The position numbers were made by a program, and so were the translations under genes. From Labyrinthula sp. Ha (taxonomy: Eukaryota > Sar > Bigyra > Labyrinthulida > Labyrinthulaceae), in assembly GCA_015227615.1 (NCBI GenBank), contig JAALGZ010000016.1:124001-188000 (forward strand): 64,000 bases of DNA. The letters are read 5' to 3'. The notes beneath the pieces were generated by a model. That model did not search any database, was not told the origin of the DNA, and was given only the letters and a program-made list of their open reading frames with translations. Shown piece after piece: positions 1-63,255 of this stretch (its first letter is position 1; each line of letters begins with the position of its first letter).

Positions 1-2332
1 TTTCTCATTAGCAACCTGTTCCACAATTCTATGGACTTCTTTGAGAGAAACCAACTCCTTAGATACTGCATTCAACTTTTTTGACCCTTGAAGACCGAGT
101 GTATTTTCTCTTAGCTCGTTGATATATTTGGTTGGGTCTGCCTGGAAGTTGACAGCTTTTTGGGCATCCACTTCGAAGAGGTCAGTAAACCTGGCTCTTG
201 CCCATTCCACACAATGCTCCACTGTTGAAGGAAAATTCCTAAGTGTGCACATAGCAATTCCACCTCCTTCCTGTTCATCGTCCTTGGGTCCATCACTATA
301 GCTCATAGTCATATGTGGGAGAATAATTTGAGAGTTACATTTTGTTCCTAATGTACCACTTTCTAGCAAAGGTTTTTGGTAGTATACACACTGCTTATCT
401 ACATACCTCCGTGCTTTCACGTTGTCCAAAGCATTGGTTACAAAATCTATACTCTCCCAAAAACGCTGGTTAAATATGTTCTCTGAATCAGGATTAACAA
501 GACGCTCTAAAGCTTCAACATTTATACCTGAGTTCATCTCAAGAATCGATTGCTTGGCAGCCAGACTCTTTGGTTGCCCAACGTTGTCCTCTCTAAACAA
601 AAATTGTCTAGAAAGGTTTGAAATCTCAATGCTATCATTATCTGTAACTGTTATTTTCCCCTGCTTTTCTGGATCGCAAGCCAGTCCGAGCAGAGCAAAA
701 TTTTTCAACAACTCGCAACCAAGAGCTCCACAACCAACCATGAAAGTAGAGCTCCGCATTAGCTTTTGATGACGTGTTTTACCAATGATTTTGATAATGT
801 CATCATATCTACTTCCTAAGGGTTCTTTATCAGATTCTTCGATAGGAGAAGTAACTACTCCAGAAAATTTATGAGGAAGAACCTCAAAACAGTCTAAATG
901 GAGCCACTGCTGCAAAGGAGTATATTTTCCAGTAAATTTAACTACTTCCTGGGCTATAATTCCCCCAAAGAACGTACAGAAAGGCTGAAACTTACATTCA
1001 GCATATCTTGCAATATCGGCAATAACCTCCTCATCTATTTCCCCCAAAGCCAAAGCGCCTTCTTTACCCTTTAGCTCTTGGTTCAAATCCCGGGCAATCT
1101 TAAGTATACTTTGAACCGCATTCTCATCGTTCGCCTTTGGCAGTCCTTCATTTTCAGCTTCATACTTCCATAGTGCTCGAAGTCCAATATGAAGCTGTTC
1201 TGCTCTTCCAAACTTCATACCATCAGTGAAAACTAGCATTCCCTGATCAGGATGAACTGGATTATCCAACATTTTTCCAAGAGGCTGAAAGCTCATATTT
1301 ACGGGAGTCTTTTTCTGTACCAGCAGACCAGCTGATTGAGGAACATAATCTGGAAGATCCATCTTTTGTGGTAAAATAACTTCAAGAGCATATGCATTAA
1401 AAACCTTTTTTCCATCAGCCAATACCTCTTTGTGCTCTTTTACTTCAAAAGGTTGGGTTAACCCATTTAAAGCCTTACCTAATTCACCTTCAATTTCTTC
1501 TAATTTTACCCAGGCATGATGAGGATCGAATTCAATATTGTGTCTCTGACCATCATCACCTTGAATCAAATGGACAATTATTTTCCCTTCACTCTTTGCT
1601 TGGGAGACGTCAATTTCTTGAATTGTTCTAGTAACTTCAGGTTCTCCAGTCTTATCCAATACTCTCCATTGCGCTCCGAAATCAACAAACGCGTATCCAA
1701 CTAATCCATGAACATTACACCTGATGAACTTTGTATTTTTCTTCTTATTATCAGCGTTCTTTCTTATTTCAGAGTTACATAATACAGCTTGTTGATGGGT
1801 CAATCCACAATCTAAAACCACATCAAAAGCTCTCAAATTTTTATTAGTTAACTTTCCTTGATGCGTTGTTACATTAACAAGTGGATTCAATGCCTTGAGT
1901 TTATCCACACAAGCTTCAGCTACTGATTTACTCTGTGAAACATCGCTCTCCGAAAGATAAAAGTTAGTTCCAAGATCACTTATCGTAACCGGATCATCAT
2001 CGTACAAAGTTACTTCCCCAGCACCAGCTAGGATCAGATTCTTAGCTGCTTCGATTCCAACACCCTTCGCTCCTATAACTAAAACCTTCATTTGTGTCAG
2101 TTTTGCCATAGCTTCAACCTAAAAAATAAATCTTACCGAAGAAACTTTACTCCATATTCTCCCACTTGTCTAGAATACCTAAAAAGTCAAGAAAACATAC
2201 GAATGAGGAAAGTTAAAAAAGTCATCGCCAAGGGAGTAGCCAATGACAAACGAAACAATTTATGAATATTTACTTGTCCATCAAATGCGCATTTTTCTCC
2301 AATGACTGGGCATCTTTAATAGGTGTAGACAT
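1..2332 (-). CDS. UBA1: Ubiquitin-activating enzyme E1 (UBA1), 5' part, runs off left edge
   Basis: Activates ubiquitin (adenylation, then thioester on a Cys) and passes it to E2s. Exons: 2332..2274, 2178..2151, 2118..1. The ATG at 2332 starts MSTPIKD; exon 2 encodes YSRQVGEYG and exon 3 resumes VEAMAKL, the usual E1 start (SRQxxxxGxEAM). Introns are 95 nt and 32 nt, both GT-AG, and each splice keeps frame. Seen in order: inactive adenylation domain (about residues 20-170), middle region, active adenylation domain with GCGALG and NLSRQFLFR, and the catalytic Cys in MCTLRNFPST at about residue 653 (codon 249..247). 735 codons lie in the window; the family is about 1050 aa, so about 300 residues (the rest of the Cys domain and the ubiquitin-fold domain) lie to the left. 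A LINE sits 173 bp upstream of the ATG. Identification is secure; the 95-nt intron is longer than all others here. Confidence 0.95.
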
Positions 2333-2492
2333 TTAAGACAATAGCTAGATTAATTTTAATTGCAGTTCTTATGAAATGATTTTTTCTTCTTCCAAATTCT
2401 GTGAATGGCTGATATGGTCACTTGACAAAATGTTTCTTTCGCTTCAACAAAATGCAATGTAATTTCAGATGGCCATATCACATATTAAACCG

Positions 2493-2505
2493 TTAAGCAC
2501 AAGCT
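2493..2505. repeat. 5' target-site duplication of LINE
   Basis: TTAAGCACAAGCT occurs here and again at 6311-6323, immediately beyond the tandem-repeat tail of the LINE. The 13-bp exact match flanks the element and defines its ends. Confidence 0.85.
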
Positions 2506-5500
2506 GGAAAATTTGGAAACAAAGAAACCGTTATGAGTTCCGGCAACACTCAGGCAGTCGAAAGACAGTCACCAGTCAATGAAGCGCAAGATTCCAGAGC
2601 AATCTCAATTATCTCTGTGAATGTTGACCGTCTCACCTCCTACAAGCTCAGGTCTATCGAGGAATATGCCCTAACTGCCGATACAAACGTCCTTGCAATA
2701 CAGGAAGTTGGTAGCAAAGGAGCGGAATACCTCGAAAGAGCGAGCTTCTCTAGACTAAACTGGTTTACAACAGATATCTCTAAGAATAAAGACACAGAAA
2801 AAAACAAAATCAATATTTTAGCAACATACTTCAACAGGAACATGGACAAAGAAACAGAAAAAGTATTTGATGAAGATAGAATTTTAGGTGTTAAAACTAA
2901 ACTTAACTCTAGAAGCTATTACATCATCAATATCTATGCACCACACGCAGGAAAAACAGCAAAAGAATACAGCCAGTTTCTAACAAGACTCCAGAAAGCG
3001 ATCTCACTGAAAAGGAGAAAAGACCTCATGATAATCCTAGGCGACTGGAACGCTCAAATACGGCACAACGAAGTGACAAGCAATGGAAACTACGGATACA
3101 CGACAAGAACGAACAGGAACGGCAAAATACTTCGGGACTTTCTGAACAAGTACAATCTGGCCATCGTCAACTCATACTTCGCTACTGGTGCAAAGAATAC
3201 AAATAGTCATGTAACATACTACTCAAAGCATAAGAATAATCAGAAACGCTCAGAAATAGATTTCATCATAGCGTGTAAAGGCAGCACCCCACTATTCCGA
3301 AAAATTCGGATAAAAAGAAAACTAGGAGAGAAAATCCACAATAGAACAGAGTTTGATCATCAACCAGTTGAAGCACTAGTCTCACAAAAGTTCAGGAAAT
3401 ACTCCAACCAAAACCAAAAAATGCATCGAAACTACAAAGAGTTCTTCAAAATTGACGCACACCGATGGAAGCTAAACGAAGAAATACGACAAGGTTTCGA
3501 AGAAGAAATAGCCAAGCTCCCACCACCCAATAACTCTGGAAAACAACCAAGACTAAACTTTCAAACGTTCAAGTCAACAATAAAACAAGCCATTGGAAAC
3601 TGTATCCCACTGGTGGCACATGAAAGACTCTACAAAATATCTTCAGAAAGAACAGAGACTTTATTTGAAATAAGAAGAAGACTGTGGAAATCTCTAACTG
3701 AAAATGAATCTAAAATACTAAAAAAGATGATAAGAAAAAGTACCTTGAATGACTACAAAACCTGGTTGGACCTTCAAGTAAGAAGAATAGATACAGCTAT
3801 GGCAAAGAATGATATCCATGAAGCTTTCAAACAAGCGGAAAGGATAGTAGGAAAAAAACGGAAACCTCAACGCACCATTACCATGGAAGATGGAAAACAC
3901 CTAAACGATAAAAAACGAGTAAAAGTATTCCAAGAATACCTTGAACTCACTCAAAGGAACAGAGAAGAAAACATCATGGACAACGAACTGGATATTCTTG
4001 AAGCCAAAGCTGAAGATACAAATATATCTCCTCCGACTTTAGAAGAACTTGAAGAGACGGCGAAAACACTAAAGAACTATAAAGTACCCGGACCTGATGG
4101 AATCACAAACGAAATCCTAAAGAATAACAAAATAGTATTGAAATACTTGCAGCAACTTGCAGAAGAACTATTTTTAGATCCAAGTGGCCTGAACAAAGAT
4201 GAGCTTATATCTCTCTCTACTGGGAACATCATCTTCCTATACAAAAAAGGAAACCATCAACTTCCTTCCAACTATAGGCCAATATCCTTGCTTAACACTT
4301 CTTACAAACTAATCACTAAAATAATAAACAATAGACTAAAGAATACCCTGGAAAGAACAGTAGAAAAATACCAGTCTGGATTTAGAGAGAATACGGGAAC
4401 TAGACAAAAAATTCAACTTCTCTTAAACCGCTGTAAACTCAGCCAAATGGAGAACTCGAAGATACTATGTCTCTTTATAGATTTCAAAAAAGCTTTTGAC
4501 TCTTGCAAACATCCTTTCCTCGAGCTTAGTTTAAAAGAGAGAAAAGTCCCTGCTAACTTTATCAATATAATCCTTTACCTATATAAATATGCTGCAGTCC
4601 AAGTAAAGATAGGAAAACATATAAGTGACAGAGTAGAAATAAACAAAGGCGTGCTACAAGGTGATTCACTAAGTCCCATGTTATTTGTACTTGCTCTGGA
4701 CTCTCTGCTTCGAAGGATAATAAAGAAAATAAACTTGAACTTTCCAGAAGCAGAATTCTCCTTTCAAAACATTTTCGGATTTGCTGACGACCTTTGTATC
4801 ATGAGTAAAGATAGAAACATCTTCAAACATTTTGTTCAATATACAGAAGAACTCTCACAATTGTCTGGCCAAAAATAAATATACAGAGAACTCAACTCAT
4901 GGGAATAGTCAGAACAAAGAAGCTCAAAGATAAGCTTTCAGACACTGCAATTCAACAACTGGTCAATAAACACACCTGCACCTCTTGTTCCAGAAACTTC
5001 CCGTCAAAAGATGCCCTTGTAGGACATAAAGCACAGTGTTTTGGACCGGGAACCGCGTTAGTTCGAAGTAGAAAGGGCACTACAGCAGTTGCTGCAGCTG
5101 AACTAAACTTCCTCTACAACAACATCCCAATAGAAGAAAACCTGGAAACCAACCTTGGAACCATCAAAGGAGTAAAAACCTTTAGATACCTTGGAGTGGA
5201 TATAACAGCAACAGCTGAAACCCATGTTAACCCATTCGCTAGAATACGCGCTGCACAGGAAACTCTCCACAAACTGCAACCGATACTGAGGAATAATATG
5301 CTGACTGTCAGAAGGAAAAGAACATTGTGAAAGCGCTAGTGGTCTCAAAAATCCAATATGGCAGCGAGTTCTGGAACCTGGAAAACAAAGATACATCCAA
5401 AGCCTTGAATAAACTCTCTAGAGATATAAAACGCGCCCTCCTCCAACCTAATCCAACGCAGCCACTTGAACACACGAAACAGGCCAATACTCTCAAAGCC

Positions 5501-6310
5501 GGTGATATAAACATCCTAAAAATATTAAAGGAAAAACAAAAAAGCTGGCTGGAAACATGCACAACGACAGAAATGGATTTGGAACTGGCGAAATCCTCAA
5601 GGAAACTTGAAGCATATCTTTTTCAACAAACTGCTACTCCAACTGAAGACTTGAACGTACCACTGGAGCATATAAGAGAAGAACTAGAACACCATGAACC
5701 ACGCCCTCCCCTTCACCCGCCACCACCCGGGGAGAACAGCCCAACCCCACCACAAACAACACCTTAGTTCATCACTTGATACAACTCCCACGTGCATTTC
5801 AAATAACTTCTGGCCTCAGTGGCTTCTTGGATGGATAACTGGAGAAAGCCCATCTGGATCTCTTCATAAACCACGATTATCTTGTAAAACAGAACGATGA
5901 GCGACAACAGAAGTAAAAAACTGGTGCAGGACATCTCGATATGATCAATAAAGGAACTTGAAACAATTTATTTGATATCAGGAACACTGGATATGACGCA
6001 CGACAATATCTCAATCTCTTTCATGATTTCTTGCGTGAGTTGTTAATTTCGATTTGGATTATTCAAAAATCTTGGGAAATCACTATCTAGTAAGATCAAA
6101 TGCGATAAATGAGTACAACGGGAAAACTATCGTGATCGTGCCAATAGTGTCTCGAAATCCCACAAACCAGTTTAGTTTAGTGACAGTAGGAGCACGAGAC
6201 GGGAAGCTTCCCTAGTGAGCGGCGGACCGGCATCGGACCCTAAGATAAACGTATGGGCGGATTTGCAGATGTAGTACCTTACTCCCACCTTAACTATTAA
6301 CTATTAACTA
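2506..6310 (+). mobile_element. APE-type non-LTR retrotransposon (LINE), RTE-like, near full length
   Basis: A 3.8-kb element bounded by a 13-bp target-site duplication. It starts 27 nt before the ORF and ends in three copies of TTAACTA (about 6290-6310), a short tandem tail as in RTE- and I-type LINEs. One reading unit encodes an AP-type endonuclease, a reverse transcriptase and a C-terminal region. The 3' untranslated part is about 5770-6290. The single ORF, size and tail resemble the RTE clade, but clade assignment is inferred without a tree. Insertion is recent enough to keep a perfect target-site duplication. It may sit within the UBA1 promoter region. Confidence 0.9.
2533..5767 (+). pseudogene. 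LINE ORF: endonuclease-reverse transcriptase, two frameshifts
   Basis: Starts at ATG 2533 (MSSGNTQAV). APE endonuclease about 2600-3390 with the QEV, YAPH, LGDWNA, EIDFI and FDHQPVE motifs. Linker to about 4050. Reverse transcriptase about 4060-4860 with GPDGITNEI, NYRPISLL, FIDFKKAFDS, LQGDSLSP and the catalytic FADD (about 4781). The first frame closes at 4878, but the next frame continues the expected KINIQ-T text, so a one-base change lies in the A-run near 4872. A second shift lies near 5311-5326, after which KALVVSKIQYGSEFW gives the normal thumb/C-terminal end. A C2HC finger (CTSC..H..C, about 4970-5030) sits between the palm and the FRYLGVDI block. Two lesions make this copy inactive as it stands. 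Confidence 0.88.
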
Positions 6311-53458: not shown

Positions 53459-53579
53459 ATGAATTTTAGTAAACTAAGCTATATTTACCCACTTATTGCA
53501 GCATTCTTTGTCTCTGTCGTTGTGTCCATCGTTGGAATAGTCCAGACACTCAAACAAGAGCTCGTTGTTGCAAAACTGC

Positions 53580-53832
53580 TGTCAACATATTGACCTTGCA
53601 GTTTCTTAACTACCTTCATCCTGTGAAAGATTTTCGTAAACATATTTGATACTAACTAGCCTGTTACATACCTATGTATGTACTTCATGTAATAGGTATA
53701 AGGCACAGATGGTGCGTACTCTGTGTAATATAGTTATAACCTTGGCTTGCTATATTATAGCCGTCACAATTATGTCATATTTAAACGTTAATACCTAACT
53801 AACAAGATCTCAGAAGTAGTATACTAAAGACA
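53580..53832 (+). repeat. 5' LTR
   Basis: Begins TGTCAACATATT, ends CTAAAGACA. Three transitions separate it from the 3' LTR (98.8 percent identity). Directly after it lies the 12-nt palindrome TTATTCGAATAA (53833-53844); no obvious tRNA 3'-end complement beginning TGG is seen there. Confidence 0.95.
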
Positions 53833-53899
53833 TTATTCGAATAACGTAGATAACTGAGCACGTTACGAATATTAAGCAGAAAAAGTAAGATACACGAAC

Positions 53900-55170
53900 T
53901 ATGGATCAAGAAAAGACGAATGCGTGCACGCAGCATACTGAAACTTCCCCTTCACCGCAAGAAATGGACAGGAACGAAGCTCGTACAAACTTCGTACAAA
54001 ATGATCCACCACAGACTCCTTCTTCTTTCACAAACCCAACAACAACATGTAGCTCTACTTAAGTATCAGGAAGCAAACTTTTATCCCCCACTGCTTTGAA
54101 CCGAGTTAATCGTATTCTGAGAGAAAGAAGAACCTTAGTAAGAAGAGAAGAACAAATAGAATCAAGAGAACTGGCTCTGGCTGAAAGAGAAGCAGCTATT
54201 CGTGAAAAAGAAGTGAGAATTAATAAACTATTAGAAGAAGTAGAGGAATCAACAAGGAATAGTAATGTTCAAGAGGAAGAAACAAGAGGATTCAATCACC
54301 CACAAAATCAAGAAGGTCAACAAGATGGTGACAATTCATTAAGATCAGCAAAAGTTAGCGAAATAAAGCCTGAAAACTTTGAGGATAATTCATCTGACAA
54401 TACGATGAAGAACAATGCATTGGGGTCTTTTTATGCTCCCTGGTCAGAAACTGGAAGTCTTTATGCGGAGAAGAAAGCTAAAAATAACAAGTATAATGTT
54501 CCAGCGCACGATTGGCCACAAACTTCATATTCAAACACAGGGCACCCTCTTATTCAGATGTCTTTACCTCCTAAATTAAAGATTCTTACTGGCGATGCAA
54601 TTGAAGCTTTTTTACATGACTTCCAAAACGTTGTAAGAAGTGTACCAGGAATTAGCTTACGATATCTCTTAACTGAAGAAGTATCGGAAGCGTTATATCA
54701 AAGAGGGGTGGATATCTCTAATGGAAGATCTATTTTTACTTACCTTCAAAAACACCTTGAAAAACATAGGAAATTTGAACGTGTAAGAGGCTTAATTAAC
54801 ATTGAATAAAATGTATCTTGGCCGGTTAAAAAACTCAAGGTGGTAGAACAAGTCTACCTATTCTTTGATGACGTTTACAAAGCCCTGAAATATATGAACG
54901 CTGCGGAAATGAAGAAGAATAAGAAGAAGATCTGCAAGATCGTATTCAAGAAAGTCCTTAGAGAGTTTGATTTGACTTACAAAGAGTTCCAATTTAATAC
55001 TGGAGATACAAACCTTGAAACATTAAAATCACTTCTGGTAAATAGATACTTCGTTTTGAACAGAAGATCTAACAAATTCAGGATCGAGAGTAAGATGATC
55101 AAGAACAAAATCAAAGTTGGTCATATTCAACACTTAGAATCCGGAGAGAGGGGATCAGAACCAGTCTAAC
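53900..55170 (+). mobile_element. gag-like region of the LTR element
   Basis: Charged coiled-coil segment (RRTLVRREEQIESREL, about 54120-54240), followed by a capsid-like block (ALYQRGVDISNG) as in Ty3/Gypsy gag. No zinc knuckle was found. Broken. Confidence 0.65.
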
Positions 55171-55289
55171 CACTTCATCAATTACAAACATCCAAGATGA
55201 AGTTGGTCCGCGTTATTCATGTTAAGCACGTTGGTGATTCTGCTAGAACCATTAAACTGATGATGATGCACAAGGTTGACAGAAATTAC

Positions 55290-55580
55290 GCTATTGTCAA
55301 GGGGCTCGCGGATACTGGTGCTTATTACAACGTTTCTAGTGTTGAATCTATTGAACCTTATATTCTTAGAGAAGAGAAGCCGAAGTTCGTAAAGGAAATT
55401 GAGTTTTTAGATAAGAATCGTTACCCAATCGACAAAGTTGTCATCGCTAAAGTTATCTTGATCCAGAAGGACTTTAAATTAAACTTGAGAGAACAACGAT
55501 TTTTCTGTGTAAGAAGTCCTCCTTGGGACGATATTATAGTCGGCGAGAGAACTTTAAGAAGGTTTGGTGTTGAGCTAGAT
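55290..55580 (+). mobile_element. Retropepsin-like protease region
   Basis: LADTGAYYNVSS at about 55306 has the DTGA active-site motif, and a downstream hydrophobic DDIIVGERTLRRFG block fits the flap/C-terminal part of retroelement proteases. Confidence 0.7.
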
Positions 55581-56459
55581 GTCAGCAAAGCTCCAGATGT
55601 AGAGAAAGCTGAATAGGATGTTGGCAAGGAGTTACCAACTCTAGAACCAAGTACTGATGAATCTAGTGTTTTATCGAGGAAGAAGCTTCCTGTCAGACAA
55701 CTTTACATCTTAATCTGTCACGATGGCTCATCTTTAGGATTCAGAGACAATAACTTTATCAGTGGAATACAAGATTATACCTTTATATCTATACTTATTG
55801 AGTTTCAACACTGGATGACTATATTTACAGTGTTTGTAGAAGCTGGATTCCGTTTAGGAGAGTCAATAACTTTTGTAAACCAAACGCAGCCATCTAGTCG
55901 CTTTCAGGGTTCTGATTTAAAATTCAAATCTTTCAGGTATTTAATATTTTACAACGAGCAGCACCGTGACATAGATCTACATCAGCAGAGGAATAACGAT
56001 GTTCTAATGTTGCAAGTCGAAGCAGAACAATATTTGATTAAGATTTTTTAAGATTTGTTAAGAGGATCTGAATACAATATAGAGATACATGAATCTAACT
56101 TTTCAAGAGCTACGGATATACACTCATTTACAAAGAACAAGGTTTCTTCAATCAAATGCATCCCGTTGGAAGAGGTGACCTCAACACATTTTGAGCACCT
56201 AGACGAAGTTCCGGTTGGCAAGCCAATACCAGCCATTCTGGTCTCCAACATGGTAGACAACATACCTGAGGAGTTCAATGAGGTCGAGATTGGAGAAGGC
56301 AATATTGAGAGACACAAAGAAACGTAACTTTTAAACGAAATGGTTAAATCTAAGGTCGATTCATCAAATCTAAATGAGGAACAGAAAGTAGAAATAAAGC
56401 TTCTTATGCGAAAATATATCACCTCCTGGGGGGTTAAGCAATCGAATGATATGATGTCA

Positions 56460-57950
56460 TCATTGACTCCTATCGAGGTAACCCTCAAGGATGGCGCTCG
56501 CGTTTTAAGAAGTGATGGATACCACCAAACCCCTGAAGAAGAGGAATTTTTGGAATGCAAGTTTACCGCACTAGCAAGCGCTGGAATTGTGAAACGAGCC
56601 AAAAATCCGGTTTGGGGTCATCCGGTATTTGTTGTACCAAAGAAAATAGGCACGCCTTCCAACTGGAATGATCTTAGTGCATAGGAAAAGGGAAAATGGA
56701 AAGACAATAACCTGTTTAACAGATTCAGGATGGTCAGTTACATGATCAAGTTGGATAAAATAACAGTTCCAACGGCACTTAGCTTACCTAATCTTGAGAG
56801 ACAATTTTTATCCATCAAGAATTCAAGATTCTATTTGACGTTGGATATTTTAAGTGGCTTCGACTTTCTACCCACTAAAAAAGTTTTAGAGATATTTTTA
56901 CTTTGGTTACACGCCGTGGAGCTTGGAGAATTCGAGGAGCTCCAATGGGGCGGTGTAACACACTACCTTTATTTTTCGAAAGAGTTGTAAATGAAGTTAT
57001 TGACGGACCTGTTATTAAGAAGTTTGGTACGCCATCTAATGGATCAATAGCTTGGTTGGACGACTTATTAGTTTACGCAGAAACCTTTCAAGATTTATTA
57101 GAAGTATTTGAACATCTACTTAAGAGGACTCAGATCAAGCAGGTTAGATACAACATAAGAAAATGTGGCATCTGTGAAGAAGTTACTGTTTGGTGTGGAC
57201 GTCAAGTTAAAAATGGAAAATAGAACTTTAGCTCCGAGTTCTACAAGAAGGTTTTAGATATACCCAAACCGATCTACAGACATCAAATGTCACAACTTGT
57301 GTATTTTTCAAACTGGATTGGACCCAATATTCCTAATCTTTCTAAACTTCAAGGACCCTTTTCTGAATATGCAAACCTTAAGGGTAAGAAATTGGCAGAC
57401 ATTGAAAAGAACAAAGAAATTATTACATTGACAGAGGATCTTGAAGAATCCTACAACAAGTTAAAGCGTGCAATTTCTGAAGCTTCTCAAAGATTTTTAT
57501 GTACTTACGATTATGAAAAGTCACTTTTACTTTTTACAGATAGCTCCTATTCTGCATGGAGTTTAGTAGTTTTTCAGGAGGAAGAGGAAAATATTAGCTC
57601 TGACGTACGAACTCTTAGACCAAAACCCATGATCTTTTTATCCGGTGCATTTACAAACAGTTAGCTTCGATGGCACATTGCATCGAAGGAACTTTATCCT
57701 ATAATATACTCCTTCCAACGCATTGGTTTTATTATGAGAACCCATGTGGGAGGAATACATGTCTATACGGGCCATAGAGCGTTACTCTCGGTGATTCGCA
57801 CAAAGGAAAACGAGAAGCGTGTCTAGTGGGACCGTCTCTATAGATGGGCTATTCGTATCCAGTCCATTGACATGAAAGTTTACCACATCCCATCGAGAGC
57901 TAATTTCGTTTCGGATTTATTAATTCGCTGGGGATACAAAGAATAACATA
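56460..57950 (+). mobile_element. Reverse transcriptase and RNase H region
   Basis: RT blocks in Ty3/Gypsy order: AGIVKRAKNPVWGHPVFVVPKK, LTLDILSGF, and AWLDDLLVY in the position of the catalytic [FY]xDD. RNase H: LLLFTDSSYSAW (about 57520) and a TGHRALLS block (about 57770). Broken. Confidence 0.85.
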
Positions 57951-58439
57951 CTAAAGTTAGAAGAGCCACTGTCTTAATAACAGAAGATGATTTTTATGAG
58001 TCTGAAGATATTTACTTTTACGAAGATATACCAACTATTTCAGAAGATGAGGTTAAAATGTGGGATAATGTTCAAGAAGTTGAAGAAGTCTATTACAAAG
58101 ATGTTCAAGAAGCAACGAAGGATGAAGCTTTTCGTTTAGGTAGAGTCACCGTTTTAGAACATATTTAAAATTCTCAAGATGATGTACAACAAGTTGTCCA
58201 CCCTCAACTATTTAGTATCCCAACAAATCTCAATTCTCTAAAGAGCAAATTATTTTCAGACCATATTTCATACATATCACCCTTTTACGGAAAGCCGAAG
58301 CTTACACAGATTACTTTAGAAGATATACGAGTCGCTCAGGCCTCTCTTTCAGAGGAACAAGATAGAAATTACGAAGTCCAGGATGGATTTTATTACCAAG
58401 ATGGTAAGCTGGTTATCCCGAAGAACAAATCTGCCGATA

Positions 58440-59010
58440 TTATTATCAGAAATCACGTTTTAAAGTGTCATCCGTCGTTAACTGCAGAGAAAAACTATTT
58501 AAACTTATATTACTTTGTTGGAATAAAGCAGAGTGATTTGAACTGGATTATCAAGATGTATCACAATCGCTGCTTACTCTGTCAGAAGAATCCTTCTATT
58601 ATTAGACGCCCATTCAATTTTACAAAATTAGCTCGTAAAGCTAGGGAAATCATTAGGGCAGACTATTTATATATCAATAAAGCGGGATACATTTTAGTTG
58701 TTTTAGATTCATGCACGCGAAAAACGATGCTAACGTATCGCAAATCTCCTACTGCGGCTGGTTTAGTGTACAAACTTATTCGCTGGAGAGTAGATTTATG
58801 CTTAGAAGAACATTTTCTAGTTGTTACCGACAATGGTAGCCATTTCGTGAACCAATTAGTCAAGCAGTTTTCAGAGTCCATTGGATTCGAGCAATCGTTC
58901 AGCGTTGCTTATAGCCCTTGGACGAACGGAGCTGTCGAGACTGCCAATAGTCTTATACTTAGATGTATCCGCTCATTAACTTCTCAATTCCGATTACACG
59001 AAACTGAATG
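58440..59010 (+). mobile_element. Integrase region
   Basis: HHCC-type finger (H..H near 58450, CLLC near 58574), then the DDE core: ADYLYINKAGYILVVLDS, VVTDNGSHFVN and GAVETANSLI carry the three acidic residues in the expected order. Confidence 0.85.
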
Positions 59011-59569
59011 ACCAAACCTTTTAGACACTATCTCTTATATTATCAATAACAAACCTAATCTTAGAAGAGGGGGAAAACACCCAACGAACTATTTATGTTG
59101 TTCAAGTTGGCTACTCCTTTATTAGAAATGGGTTCCGAGCATTTTGCTATACGCTTAAAGGATCGAATCGCAGAGCCTAACGATGTTGAAACATTAATTC
59201 TAGACTGTGAAAGACTGATGGAAGAAATAGATACACTTCAAGATCGTGTATATTTTACAGTAAAATTACAAAGAGACATTGAAAATTCAAGACGCAATAA
59301 AAGATGAGGACCTCTCATCCAATATGCTGAAGGGGACCACGTGCTCGTTTCAGAGCACGGAACACCCAGTGCCAGCGAGAAGACTAGATTAAATTGGATT
59401 GGACCTTATCAAGTTGTCGAAATCGTCTCGGATAACGTTTATCAAGTGGAAAGTCTACTTGGTAAGCTTAAAACCGTTCATGGATCTAGGCTTTGGTTTT
59501 ACGCTGATAAACTTCCTGTTGGTTCAACTAAACTCAAATCTTTATTTGCTCATAACTTTCAAAGCTTAG

Positions 59570-59700
59570 AAGTAGAATCAATCATAGAAATAAGACTCAC
59601 CAGATCTGCACCAGTTTATTATGAAGTCAAGGTGCGTTGGCTGGGATTTCAGGAGTCTGATGATACGTGGGAACATTTAGTTAGTATTTACAAATATTTG
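59570..59700 (+). mobile_element. Chromodomain of the LTR element
   Basis: VESIIEIRLTRSAPVYYEV, then KVRWLGFQESDDTWEHL: the classical chromodomain pattern (Y-hydrophobic-VKWxGxxxxxxTWE). In chromoviruses this domain directs integration to particular chromatin; it lies at the usual place after integrase. Confidence 0.85.
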
Positions 59701-59884
59701 TCGTTGATGGTTCGAAGCTTTGTGGAGAATGACTTATCCGATGTATTTCAAAAGAACAGTCTACTTACTTATTTACATAAATTGGATCAAGATCAACTCA
59801 ACGTTTCTGAAGATATTGTAGCTCAAAAACCAGACGATCTAATATTTCAAGTTCGTTATATTAAAACCACCAACAAGGATTATT

Positions 59885-60075
59885 TAGAACAAAGTCGTAC
59901 TCTAGGATGGTTTCAAATTGAGAAGGAGATTTTTTCTTTACTAGTCGCTAGATACGGATGTGGAAAATATGAAGATTACATTAATTCTGGAGCATTACCT
60001 TTCCGCAGCAAACAACAACTTTCTTCTCAACTACAATCTTTATTGAAAATCCAATCAATAGGTATTTCCCATGGA
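59885..60075 (+). mobile_element. SANT/Myb-like segment of the LTR element
   Basis: GWFQIEKEIFSLLVARYG, then GKYEDYINSGALPFRS and QLSSQLQSLLKIQS: spacing of the aromatic, WxxxE, GxGKW-like and LPxRSxxQL positions resembles a SANT/Myb helix-turn-helix. Not known as a regular part of Ty3/Gypsy elements. Assignment by eye. Confidence 0.55.
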
Positions 60076-60719
60076 CTTAAATTTATTATCGCTGACGCTA
60101 ACAAGTTCCTGGCTGACGAGTTAGGAATAACAACATTCCATAAAAATCTTCCTGAAAAATTAAACATGCTAAAAGAAAAAGAACAAATCATACGGAGATT
60201 CAAAGAAGTTTGTAAGGAGCCAGAAGAACCCGTCGCTATACCTTATTTTAGACGAGTCAGTGACCCATTACATTTGAACTTGATGCTTTCAGAGTATGAT
60301 GCAAATAAATACAAAGATTCTTATAAAGAAGATGGGATACACGCTAAAGAGGATTTGGAACAATTGATTAAAATCCATCGCGACAACTATGTTTCTGAAA
60401 TATTCTCTAATGAATCCTTTATTGAAGACATCTACAGAGCAATCTTAGAAAACACAGATTATTGGACTACGCTTGCCGATTACAGAGCTGTTTTTACTTC
60501 GACTGAACATGCTATGGATTTCACCGCCAACTTAGCTCCTTCAACAAGATTTAATTCACGGTTTGGAGTAATTACACTGTCCGTTCTGGAGACAGGTATT
60601 ATTCTTACTTATCTTTCTCATTCAAACCATGAAAAGATTTTACTACAATATTTAAGTGGCAATCGTTATAGAATTGAAGGAAGTTTAGGTGATATTTATT
60701 TTTAACCTCCCAACGCTCG

Positions 60720-61365
60720 AATTTATATTTGTAATATTCTAGATTTTCAACTTACTGTAAAACAAAATCAAGACATTTACAATATTATAGTTATGGACCC
60801 TCCTTGGCCCGTAGGAGCTCGTAATCTTACGAGAGGTGTTTCTTTAAATTATTCTACACTTTCATTAAACGAATTCAAAAGAATTAATATACCCTTACAA
60901 CACTTCCATTTTGGAAGATTGCTTTTTATTTGGGTCACAAATTATTCATATCTCGCTACTTTACAATGGGCTACTTCATTAAATTATTATTTAGAAGACA
61001 CTATTACTTGGATTAAGAAGTATAACTCTGGTATTTTACACAAAAGCCTGGTATACTTTATCCAACACTCTCAAGAAACCTGCTTAATATTTAGAAGAAA
61101 ACAGAAACCTACACTACACTACAATGACACTTTCAACGAAAACGTTTCTTTAGATTTTCCGAATTATTTTACATCAAACGTTTTCCTTCCTTCCGCTAAA
61201 CCTGATTACTTTTACAAGTTGTTGGATCACTGTTACCCTAACTGCAACAAGATAGAATTCTTTGCCAGAGACAGTAACAGCAGGCCCGACTGGAGTTTTG
61301 TTGGATTGGAACTTACACCTAATGCACATTTATCCTTTCTAAACTCCGTACGGACAGTCTCTTAA
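60720..61365 (+). mobile_element. MT-A70 adenine methyltransferase domain inside the LTR element
   Basis: Catalytic DPPW at 60796-60807 (in VMDPPWPVGARN). Downstream are the other MT-A70 landmarks in order: YSTLSLNEFKRINIPL, LLFIWVTNYSYL, ITWIKKYNSG, and HSQETCLIFRRK. The upstream text RIYICNILDFQ also fits the start of the fold. MT-A70 proteins (METTL3/14, METTL4, MTA1/AMT1) methylate adenine N6 in RNA or DNA using S-adenosylmethionine. Placed in the env position, directly before the polypurine tract, so it lies within the transposed unit. Fossil copy; specific subfamily not determined. Confidence 0.85.
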
Positions 61366-61375
61366 GAAAGGGGGA
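61364..61375 (+). other. Polypurine tract of the LTR element
   Basis: TAAGAAAGGGGGA-type purine run directly before the 3' LTR, the usual plus-strand primer site of LTR retrotransposons. Confidence 0.85.
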
Positions 61376-61628
61376 TGTCAACATATTGACCTTGCAGTTT
61401 CTTAACTACCTTCATCCTGTGAAAGATTTTCGTAAACATATTTGATACTAACTAGCCTGTTACATACCTATGTATGTACTTCATGTAATAGGTATAGGGC
61501 ACAGATGGTGCGTACTCTGTGTAATATAGTTATAACCTTGGCTTGCTATATTATAACCGTCACAATTATGTCATATTTAAACGTTAATACCTAACTAACA
61601 AGATCTCAGAAGTAATATACTAAAGACA
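61376..61628 (+). repeat. 3' LTR
   Basis: 253 bp, TGTCAACATATT...CTAAAGACA; three differences from the 5' LTR, all A/G transitions, no indels. Followed by the CTGC target-site duplication and by host coding sequence. Confidence 0.95.
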
Positions 61629-63255
61629 CTGCTTACTAACAACGCTGCATTTTCATACGAATATGAAGAAAACACAGAAGAAATAAGAGTTGCGACCATA
61701 GGAATCTTCCAGTCTACCTATAATCCAAACAATTTGGATGAAACACAACTACAAGCAGCTACTCTATCTCTTGAGAAGATTGAACATAGTACAATAGGGT
61801 TCCCACTTTTATTCCCTGCACAAAGTCATTTAGCTGGTGATGTTTTCTCGTTTATTCTTGAAAATATTTCTTCTGTTTCAGGCTTTCAACTTCAAACTGA
61901 AGAAGCTCTAAGTGATCCTTTACAAGCGTTCACCAATCTAACTTTCACAACTTGCAATCAGTACATAGAAGATGTAGATGAAACCTTAGATTCATTCTTT
62001 AATGGAGTGCAATCTTTGGTTGCAGGACTTCCTTTTCTCATTTATTGATCTGTCTCAGAAGATCTAGATTTGATAAGAACTTTGGTAAGTACAAGTAGTA
62101 AACTTAGATCGGCGGATTCAGCTCCTGCAGGAGCAATTTTGTTTCACTACATTGGATCTGCAGCTACTGCAGCAGCACAGTTAAGTCAGTGTACATCTTC
62201 TTTAGAAGCTTTCTCTTCTCTTGAAGAAAGTGAGAAATTGAGTCAAGTACTCAATGCTACAGAATATTCTTGTTTAATTACTGGTTTCAACACCTTTTCT
62301 GAATTAGTTAATTTACAATTAGTTTATTCTGACTTTCCAGTAATTTGTGGTGATGGAGGTTTGACAGTGGAAGAATGTATTCTAGTTGAGCTTAGTGGTG
62401 CTTTAGAGAGCGTTCAAAATGAAATTCTTTCTGATTCAGCTAGTTTTCAAAATCAAGATGTTTGTAGTATAACTGAAATTTATTCAACTAAATTAACTTA
62501 TTTGCTTTTTATGAGAAGTATTCTTACCAGAACAGATGATGAAGATTTGAAAATTTATGGAGAAGAGTTAAATTTAGTTTCAAATTTATTTAGTGACTTA
62601 GAAGAAGACACAAATTCAACTGCAGTAGATATTTTGTTACAATCCACAATAATTTCTTCCCTTAGTCTTGATTTACCACAAGAAATTAATGAAGAATATT
62701 TGCCTTGTAAAATAGTTTATTTTGTGGATGAAGATGATACAAATTCTTGCACTTTAAGAAAGTTTCTTCAAAAATCAGTTGACATGAATACTGATACAGA
62801 TAGTTTAGAGATTTAGTTTATGTAACAACTGGAAACTTTGTATACTATGTGTGAAGCTGCTGATTTATTTACTGAAGAATGTCCAAGATTATTTGGTTCT
62901 CTTTTAATGAATGAAGTTTTTCAGAATTCTTTGAATGCTGACAAATTAATTCTTACAGCAAGTTCGCAAAATATTGATTCAGTATATTCTAAACTTGAAG
63001 ACGAATGTGAACAGAATGAAGATGATATAAAAATTTTTAGAAGATGTCAAGTTATTTTTATTTTTGGCCTAGTTTTCTATGCACTTTCTATTTGCTCTTG
63101 TTTATTCAACGTTTTAGATATATATAGAAAAGAGTTATTTATATTTTTTTCTGGGATTTTTTCTTTTTTTAGGTGGTTTATTCATTATAATTGCTTTATT
63201 AATTTTGAAAGATAGACCAAGTTATTCTAATTTTGGAAGTCAAGAAGAAAGAGAT

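Follow-up and report, generated by a model that had tools for sequence, protein, structure and literature searches.

Structure of the Element in the Window

The window analyzed here is a stretch of 64,000 nucleotides from Labyrinthula sp. Ha (contig JAALGZ010000016.1, positions 124,001 to 188,000 of the forward strand), and coordinates refer to this stretch unless another locus is named. A Ty3/Gypsy retrotransposon spanned positions 53580–61628 and was bounded by long terminal repeats (LTRs) of 253 bp, which differed at 3 sites (98.8% identical) in a direct-repeat comparison. All features of the element were on the + strand and inside the LTRs. It is a single, broken member of a large and diverse chromodomain Ty3/Gypsy lineage, in which pol ends in an added module of a chromodomain, a Myb-like domain, a linker, and an AMT1-type MT-A70 methyltransferase domain.

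The MT-A70 domain (60778–61311) was located in the frame 60742–61362 and matched PF05063 over positions 1–172 of 172 (E 1.3e-21; score 77.8 against a cut-off of 23.9), and comparisons with the PDB and with predicted models assigned it to the AMT1/MTA1 type. Its catalytic motif DPPW (60796–60807) was aligned with the DPPW of MTA1. The chromodomain (59569–59724; PF00385, 6.4e-6, above the cut-off) adjoined the integrase C-terminal domain. A Myb/SANT-like domain followed at 59908–60060; Pfam gave no match to it in this copy at E ≤ 1, although a family profile built from 17 related elements detected it among the 210 open reading frames (ORFs) of the window with an E-value of 1.7e-15. The linker (60061–60702) was part of the ORF 59341–60702, which matched 83 merged loci in the genome, many of them over the full length. 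An in-frame TAA (60703–60705) split the chromodomain/Myb ORF from the MT-A70 ORF. The polypurine tract AAGAAAGGGGGA (61364–61375), recognized by reading the sequence, stood directly before the 3′ LTR (61376–61628). The sequence-only reading of this DNA had described the same layout, namely an MT-A70 domain with DPPW inside the LTRs and on the strand of the element, after a chromodomain/SANT region and before the polypurine tract, and each of these domains was recovered by a profile.

The 5′ LTR (53580–53832) had the ends TGTCAACA...TAAAGACA (TG...CA), and the element was flanked by CTGC on the left (53576–53579) and on the right (61629–61632), which resembled a target-site duplication. An ORF of 237 aa (54096–54809) was placed as gag by position alone, with no Pfam domain above the cut-off, and a possible retropepsin piece (55197–55616; LADTGAY) was recognized by eye from its D-T-G-A motif, with no Pfam match at E ≤ 1. 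The reverse transcriptase (RT; 56340–57220) extended over several frames, with RVT_1 at 2.2e-4, below the curated cut-off, and with the family RT profile matching several ORFs. The RNase H (57224–57661) was likewise below the curated cut-off (RT_RNaseH_2, 2.1e-5) and was matched by the family profile. The integrase core (58538–59008; rve, 2e-9) and the integrase C-terminal domain (59401–59496; PF22938, 2.4e-6) followed. The order given by Pfam on the + strand was therefore RVT_1, RT_RNaseH_2, rve, integrase C-terminal domain, chromodomain, and MT-A70. The gag-pol region of the window copy was split into several ORFs, unlike several relatives, in which the whole chain formed one frame.

Architecture and Genomic Distribution of Related Elements

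The architecture was evaluated in related elements with Pfam, and in 8 of 8 the pol frame ended in an MT-A70 domain preceded by RNase H and integrase; rve was below its curated cut-off in six. RVT_1 was reported in seven; the RT of L023 was split between ORFs and was recovered by the family profile. A Pfam chromodomain was present in six elements (below the cut-off in L010, L022, and L023), and the family profile supplied it for the remaining two, L024 and L027. The Myb domain was reported by Pfam in five of the eight, above the cut-off in L024 only; the family Myb profile scored more than 69 bits in its 17 source elements, as expected by construction. Among 24 long MT-A70 stretches (L009–L028, L029–L031, and L036), the chromodomain was detected by family profile in 23, and the exception, L019, was internally deleted. 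The order RT–RNase H–integrase was present in the polyproteins and, by Pfam and family profiles, across the broken frames of the window copy. In the L022 polyprotein, residues 1927–2107 matched MTA1 in the PDB (3.1e-33), and for residues 655–1558 the best match other than MT-A70 was Ty3-G Gag-Pol (7q5b, E 1.3e-23), a comparison made for this one element. Neither PF05869, nor a phage integrase, nor a cytosine-5 methyltransferase was among the Pfam matches of the window and the eight elements.

The assembly of the window itself (50.8 Mb, 153 contigs) was searched for further copies. Combined, the PF05063 search (best 150 of 354 candidates scored, all above the cut-off) and a search with the window MT-A70 as query (best 150 of 381 candidates scored) gave at least 245 distinct matching places, including one stand-alone host gene and stop-containing pieces. 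Among the best 150 of 354, at least 27 places lay in open frames no shorter than 1,900 aa, two of them with one stop inside the match. Direct repeat pairs 5.4–8.6 kb apart surrounded the frame in all 20 fetched stretches, most of which were picked for a long frame, so that this sample was biased to intact elements. The closest copy to the window (contig C66) was 96% identical, and many of the next copies among the matches listed were at 42–57%; some of these relatives had open frames of 1,914–1,968 aa.

The linkage of the domain to pol was examined in both directions. In the RNase H search (PF17917; best 150 of 379 candidates), MT-A70 was 0.7–3.2 kb downstream on the same strand for 104 of the 150 listed matches and upstream for two. 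The first MT-A70 list alone accounted for 71 of 150 RNase H pairs, whereas random placement gave a mean of 3.4 and a maximum of 9 in 200 trials. Conversely, a listed RT, RNase H, or integrase was upstream of 97 of the 150 MT-A70 places found with PF05063; among the 53 places without one in the matches listed, one was the host gene and several were in frames longer than 1,900 aa. Eight RNase H loci that were then unpaired were opened, and MT-A70 was found in four (L029, L030 with a frameshift, L031, and L036), while L032 ran off its contig. In L033–L035, pol ended after the integrase, and neither a chromodomain nor MT-A70 was found in these three opened loci. Hence, among the opened loci, the module is tied to the chromodomain lineage rather than to all such pol.

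The ORF with the integrase C-terminal domain, chromodomain, Myb-like domain, and linker of the window was also used as a query, and its 98 matches were merged to 83 loci. At 81 of them, MT-A70 followed on the same strand at a distance of at most 1 kb, and two had no MT-A70 among the matches listed. The domain thus belongs to the family and is not private to one copy; family members lacking it entirely, which would have spoken against the sequence-only reading, were looked for, and this linkage was the outcome. A nested host gene fragment or a private capture in a single copy, which the stop between the chromodomain ORF and the MT-A70 ORF of the window would fit, was accordingly considered almost certainly wrong, because the architecture was genome-wide and the stand-alone host AMT1 was a separate sequence with 32% identity to the window domain. 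Chance or a nested fragment was rejected on the long frames, the architecture of the eight elements, the RNase H linkage, and the chromodomain/Myb loci. The sequence-only reading had also envisaged a family that may couple chromatin reading, DNA binding, and adenine methylation, and this was partly supported. The family is a chromodomain Ty3/Gypsy one whose pol includes both a Myb-like and an MT-A70 domain, whereas methylation of element DNA and escape from silencing are predictions. That reading had one copy before it; the domain spans many deep lineages.

Other species were covered by two protein searches, both restricted by length to long proteins. The first gave five proteins among 5,690 candidates, all from the 'eukprot' source and with MAKER-style names, one being 100% identical to this genome; the second gave none among 626 candidates. 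Both searches depend on shared 5-residue words, and hence the absence of such elements from other species is not demonstrated.

Type and Catalytic Motif of the Methyltransferase

The type of the methyltransferase was explored by comparison with those families that have a solved structure in the PDB, a group to which AMT2/5 does not belong. Tetrahymena MTA1 was the nearest solved protein in 7 of 7 lineages (window, L022, L010, L024, L021, L029, and L023), bearing out the suggested likeness to MTA1/AMT1, and its lead over METTL3 was 37–67 bits; for the window domain, the scores were 98 bits for MTA1 and 55 bits for METTL3. METTL14 was far below MTA1 in six lineages and unlisted in the seventh, and MTA9 was not among the PDB matches listed in any of the seven (best 60 of 74 for L022). 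The predicted models had a predicted local distance difference test (pLDDT) value of 77 and a predicted template modeling (pTM) score of 0.77 for the window domain, and a pLDDT of 74.5 and pTM of 0.57 for the C-terminal half of L022. The first Foldseek match of both models was 9u9e_A, chain A of the DNA-bound Tetrahymena MTA1c complex. METTL3 was close behind, and the fold alone therefore leaves the choice between DNA and RNA undecided. By sequence affinity, the MT-A70 domains of the lineages tested are classified as AMT1-type.

This choice bears on the proposal that the enzyme methylates the RNA of the element or its RNA–DNA intermediate in the particle and not chromosomal DNA. LTR elements package pol with genomic RNA, and MT-A70 is part of pol here; the fold shared with the RNA enzyme METTL3 points the same way. 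The sequences of all seven lineages were nearer to the DNA enzyme, however, and the adjoining chromodomain and Myb-like domain are of chromatin- and DNA-binding types. METTL3 carries CCCH zinc fingers, and no zinc finger of this kind was reported by Pfam in the proteins searched. Methylation of RNA was thus regarded as unlikely.

Thirteen of the 18 representatives, one of them the window copy, had DPPW as the catalytic motif, and two (L027 and L028) had DPPY. DPAW was found in L009 and L010 and DPPG in L017, and these three domains may be weak or dead. In an alignment of 14 element domains and the host AMT1, 12 columns were invariant. Two of these were the D and first P of the catalytic motif, and the others held three W, two K, two R, and one each of G, E, and F; the R-G pair, a K just ahead of the usual P, and two residues (F and R) of the FGR-type motif were among them. 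These data also address whether MT-A70 is mainly a non-catalytic part that binds DNA or a partner, in the manner of MTA9 or METTL14, and steers integration or interferes with the host AMT1. The altered motifs in the L009/L010 families and in L017 would agree with such a role, as would the common pairing of MT-A70 enzymes with inactive partners (PMC12695648). It was nonetheless judged rather improbable, since DPPW or DPPY was kept in 15 of the 18 representatives, the D and first P were invariant, and the likeness was to MTA1 rather than to METTL14 or MTA9.

Selection and Phylogeny

Selection was evaluated by the ratio of nonsynonymous to synonymous substitution (omega), and close pairs alone were used because the distant families were codon-saturated. 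The omega of MT-A70 was 0.05–0.06 in three pairs at a synonymous divergence (dS) of 0.20–0.25, compared with 0.03–0.06 for RT, RNase H, and integrase; the three pairs all shared L016 and were not independent. A pair of L029 and a neighbor of L028 had an omega of 0.06 at a dS of 0.60. In the L003/L010 family, omega was 0.09–0.36 in 9 of 10 pairs and 0.69 in one pair at a dS of 0.018. As far as the usable close pairs show, purifying selection acts on MT-A70 as strongly as on RT and integrase.

For 18 representatives, separate trees of pol and of MT-A70 had 10 of 15 splits in common, one of which separated L009, L010, L012, L017, L020, L024, and L026 from the other eleven. The pol and MT-A70 distances were correlated (Mantel r 0.72), and 0 of 9,999 permutations reached this value. 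Where the trees conflicted, at least one of them had a bootstrap value below 75, and four rows of the pol alignment were without RT or other parts. Because the MT-A70 tree largely followed the pol tree, the data suggest that an AMT1-type enzyme was captured once, long ago, and then co-diverged with pol.

The host carried a stand-alone AMT1 gene (L008; 327 aa), whose best named foreign matches were in the thraustochytrids Mucochytrium and Hondaea. A tree of the element domains with host MT-A70 proteins had been proposed in the sequence-only reading. In the tree built, whose rows included nine AMT1s and four phage sequences and no METTL3/14, the host AMT1 grouped with the AMT1s of other eukaryotes (92/96, not starred), and the element domains were outside this group. 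A viral origin was rejected on one search of viral contigs, with a single element domain as query; it gave seven loci, which looked phage-type and had no RT, RNase H, integrase, or chromodomain at E ≤ 0.01.

The LTR identity was 100% in L016, L021, and L023 and at least 98% in 15 of 21 pairs, including the window; some of the lower values arose because the repeat was truncated by the end of a contig or aligned in part. The high identities indicated that some insertions were recent.

Proposed Role of the Module

Overall, the explanation that an old AMT1-type capture was retained as a module that reads chromatin, binds DNA, and writes N6-methyladenine (6mA), keeping the copies permissive, was given slightly better than an even chance. 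The enzyme would have been retained since it was beneficial to the element. The integrase and chromodomain would select the chromatin to which the complex is directed, the Myb-like domain would bind DNA, and MT-A70 would write 6mA on the complementary DNA (cDNA) of the element, or on the freshly inserted copy together with its flanking DNA. The mark could then keep new copies transcribable or hidden from silencing. In AMT1-bearing eukaryotes, 6mA accompanies transcription and permissive chromatin (PMC12695648), and self-marking would hence favor the expression of new copies. A narrower version, in which the lineage stamps its own DNA, no later than integration, with the active-chromatin mark of the host and uses 6mA as an anti-silencing tool, is plausible while falling somewhat short of even odds.

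The opposite effect was also considered, that is, host self-defence or copy control, in which the element enzyme would mark copies for silencing and so limit the damage to the host. A precedent is N4CMT of bdelloid rotifers, a chromodomain-bearing enzyme that marks transposons in silent chromatin (PMC8885841). The purifying selection between element copies and the association of 6mA with transcribed genes in AMT1-bearing eukaryotes (PMC12695648) both argue against it, and such copy control appears very unlikely.

Several points weigh against the permissive read-bind-write module. Methylation, catalysis, target, and expression are predictions only. With its broken gag-pol and the TAA at 60703–60705, the window copy cannot, as judged from its frames, give the full polyprotein. 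Three of the 18 representatives have the DPAW or DPPG motif. MT-A70 was missing, among the matches listed, from 46 of the 150 listed RNase H matches; the opened loci include five of these 46. The element domains were outside the cellular AMT1 group, and their single clade was not rejected but not shown either (approximately unbiased test, p-AU 0.163); a clade of the elements with the host AMT1 was likewise not rejected (p-AU 0.15). Moreover, ciliate AMT1-type enzymes act with a partner, and the solved partners form heterodimers (PMC12695648). A second MT-A70 was not seen in the polyproteins searched with Pfam; hence, the enzyme would need either a partner from the host or pairing with itself.

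Comparison with Known Systems

Retrotransposon-borne DNA methyltransferases are already known, and what is new here is the enzyme class, the three-part module, and the unusual depth and number of the lineage. No Ty3/Gypsy element with MT-A70 was found among the matches listed in the open-licence literature, as far as its texts were available, and subscription papers are not excluded. KnitGypsy-Dnmt3 of Klebsormidium (PMC5890265) is likewise of the Gypsy type, and its Pol ORF encodes a DNA methyltransferase on which purifying selection acts (Ka/Ks < 0.2). Its enzyme is a structurally unrelated Dnmt3-type cytosine-5 methyltransferase, whereas that of the window lineage is of the MT-A70 adenine type, and the window lineage adds the chromodomain and Myb-like domain and comprises many deep lineages. 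For the SymbioDIRS-Dnmt3 elements, methylation of cDNA was proposed by the authors (PMC5890265).

The Dam-bearing DIRS elements (PMC3783388, PMC5890265) also have an adenine methyltransferase domain in a retroelement pol. They are described as having a tyrosine recombinase, no DDE integrase or aspartic protease, and a bacterial/phage-like Dam (PF05869), whereas the window lineage has an rve integrase and the eukaryotic PF05063 MT-A70. Tetrahymena MTA1/AMT1 with MTA9, p1, and p2 (PDB 7yi8, 9u9e) is nearest in MT-A70 sequence and predicted fold and shares DPPW. It is a cellular complex of separate proteins, while in the window lineage the methyltransferase is fused with the integrase in one pol polyprotein. 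The N4CMT of bdelloid rotifers (PMC8885841) resembles the module in combining a chromodomain with a DNA amino-methyltransferase in a 'histone-read-DNA-write' layout, but it is a host gene of bacterial origin that writes N4-methylcytosine (4mC), has SPPY, and is not on a mobile element. For the chromoviruses, the chromodomain-bearing Ty3/Gypsy elements, neither a methyltransferase nor a Myb-like domain is mentioned in the portions available of PMC3605345.

The MT-A70 families are described as having changed little since the last eukaryotic common ancestor, in contrast to the cytosine methyltransferases (PMC12695648), whereas this one genome has at least 245 matching MT-A70 places. The lineage offers an arms-race setting for adenine methylation akin to that already known for cytosine methylation. 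It is also a testable natural case, in which many copies with and without a complete DPPW are present in one host with its own AMT1.

Additional Observations

The 12-nt sequence TTATTCGAATAA (53833–53844, + strand), identified by palindrome comparison, is a perfect palindrome and lies where a primer-binding site would be expected. Perfect palindromes of 12–18 nt were found at this position in 19 of 20 elements, including L009, L016, L021, L022, L025, and L027, at the junction of the 5′ LTR and the internal region, with sequences differing between families. Palindromes of 12 nt were reached at 0.4% of 1,000 random places. The palindrome in place of the tRNA site may be a self-priming or RNA-dimer signal.

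A retropepsin-like segment was found between the Myb-like domain and MT-A70, downstream of the integrase, in L001–L005 and L007 (LLDSGAG in the L001–L007 families). An RVP match (0.0018) was at the same place in L024 (residues 2204–2316), and the retropepsin-like segment of L022 was instead before the RT. The L019 element (1594–5826 of its stretch, − strand) had an LTR spacing of 5.4 kb and a frame with RT, RNase H, and MT-A70 and with no integrase or chromodomain match; from its frame, it is read as an internal deletion that keeps the methyltransferase in frame.

In the window, ORFs at 61734–63215 directly followed the 3′ LTR, and the element may be in or beside a host gene. At another locus (L044; contig C49, 6683–7465, + strand), an incomplete small-subunit (SSU) ribosomal RNA match (model positions 1270–1831 over 1,655 bases) was found beside RVT_1 in a frame of 2,901 aa, perhaps an element inserted in ribosomal DNA. 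The SSU rRNA gene of the host was of eukaryotic type and short, about 1.6 kb (L045, 53–1943), with very short internal transcribed spacers ITS1 and ITS2 of about 72 and 73 nt, respectively.

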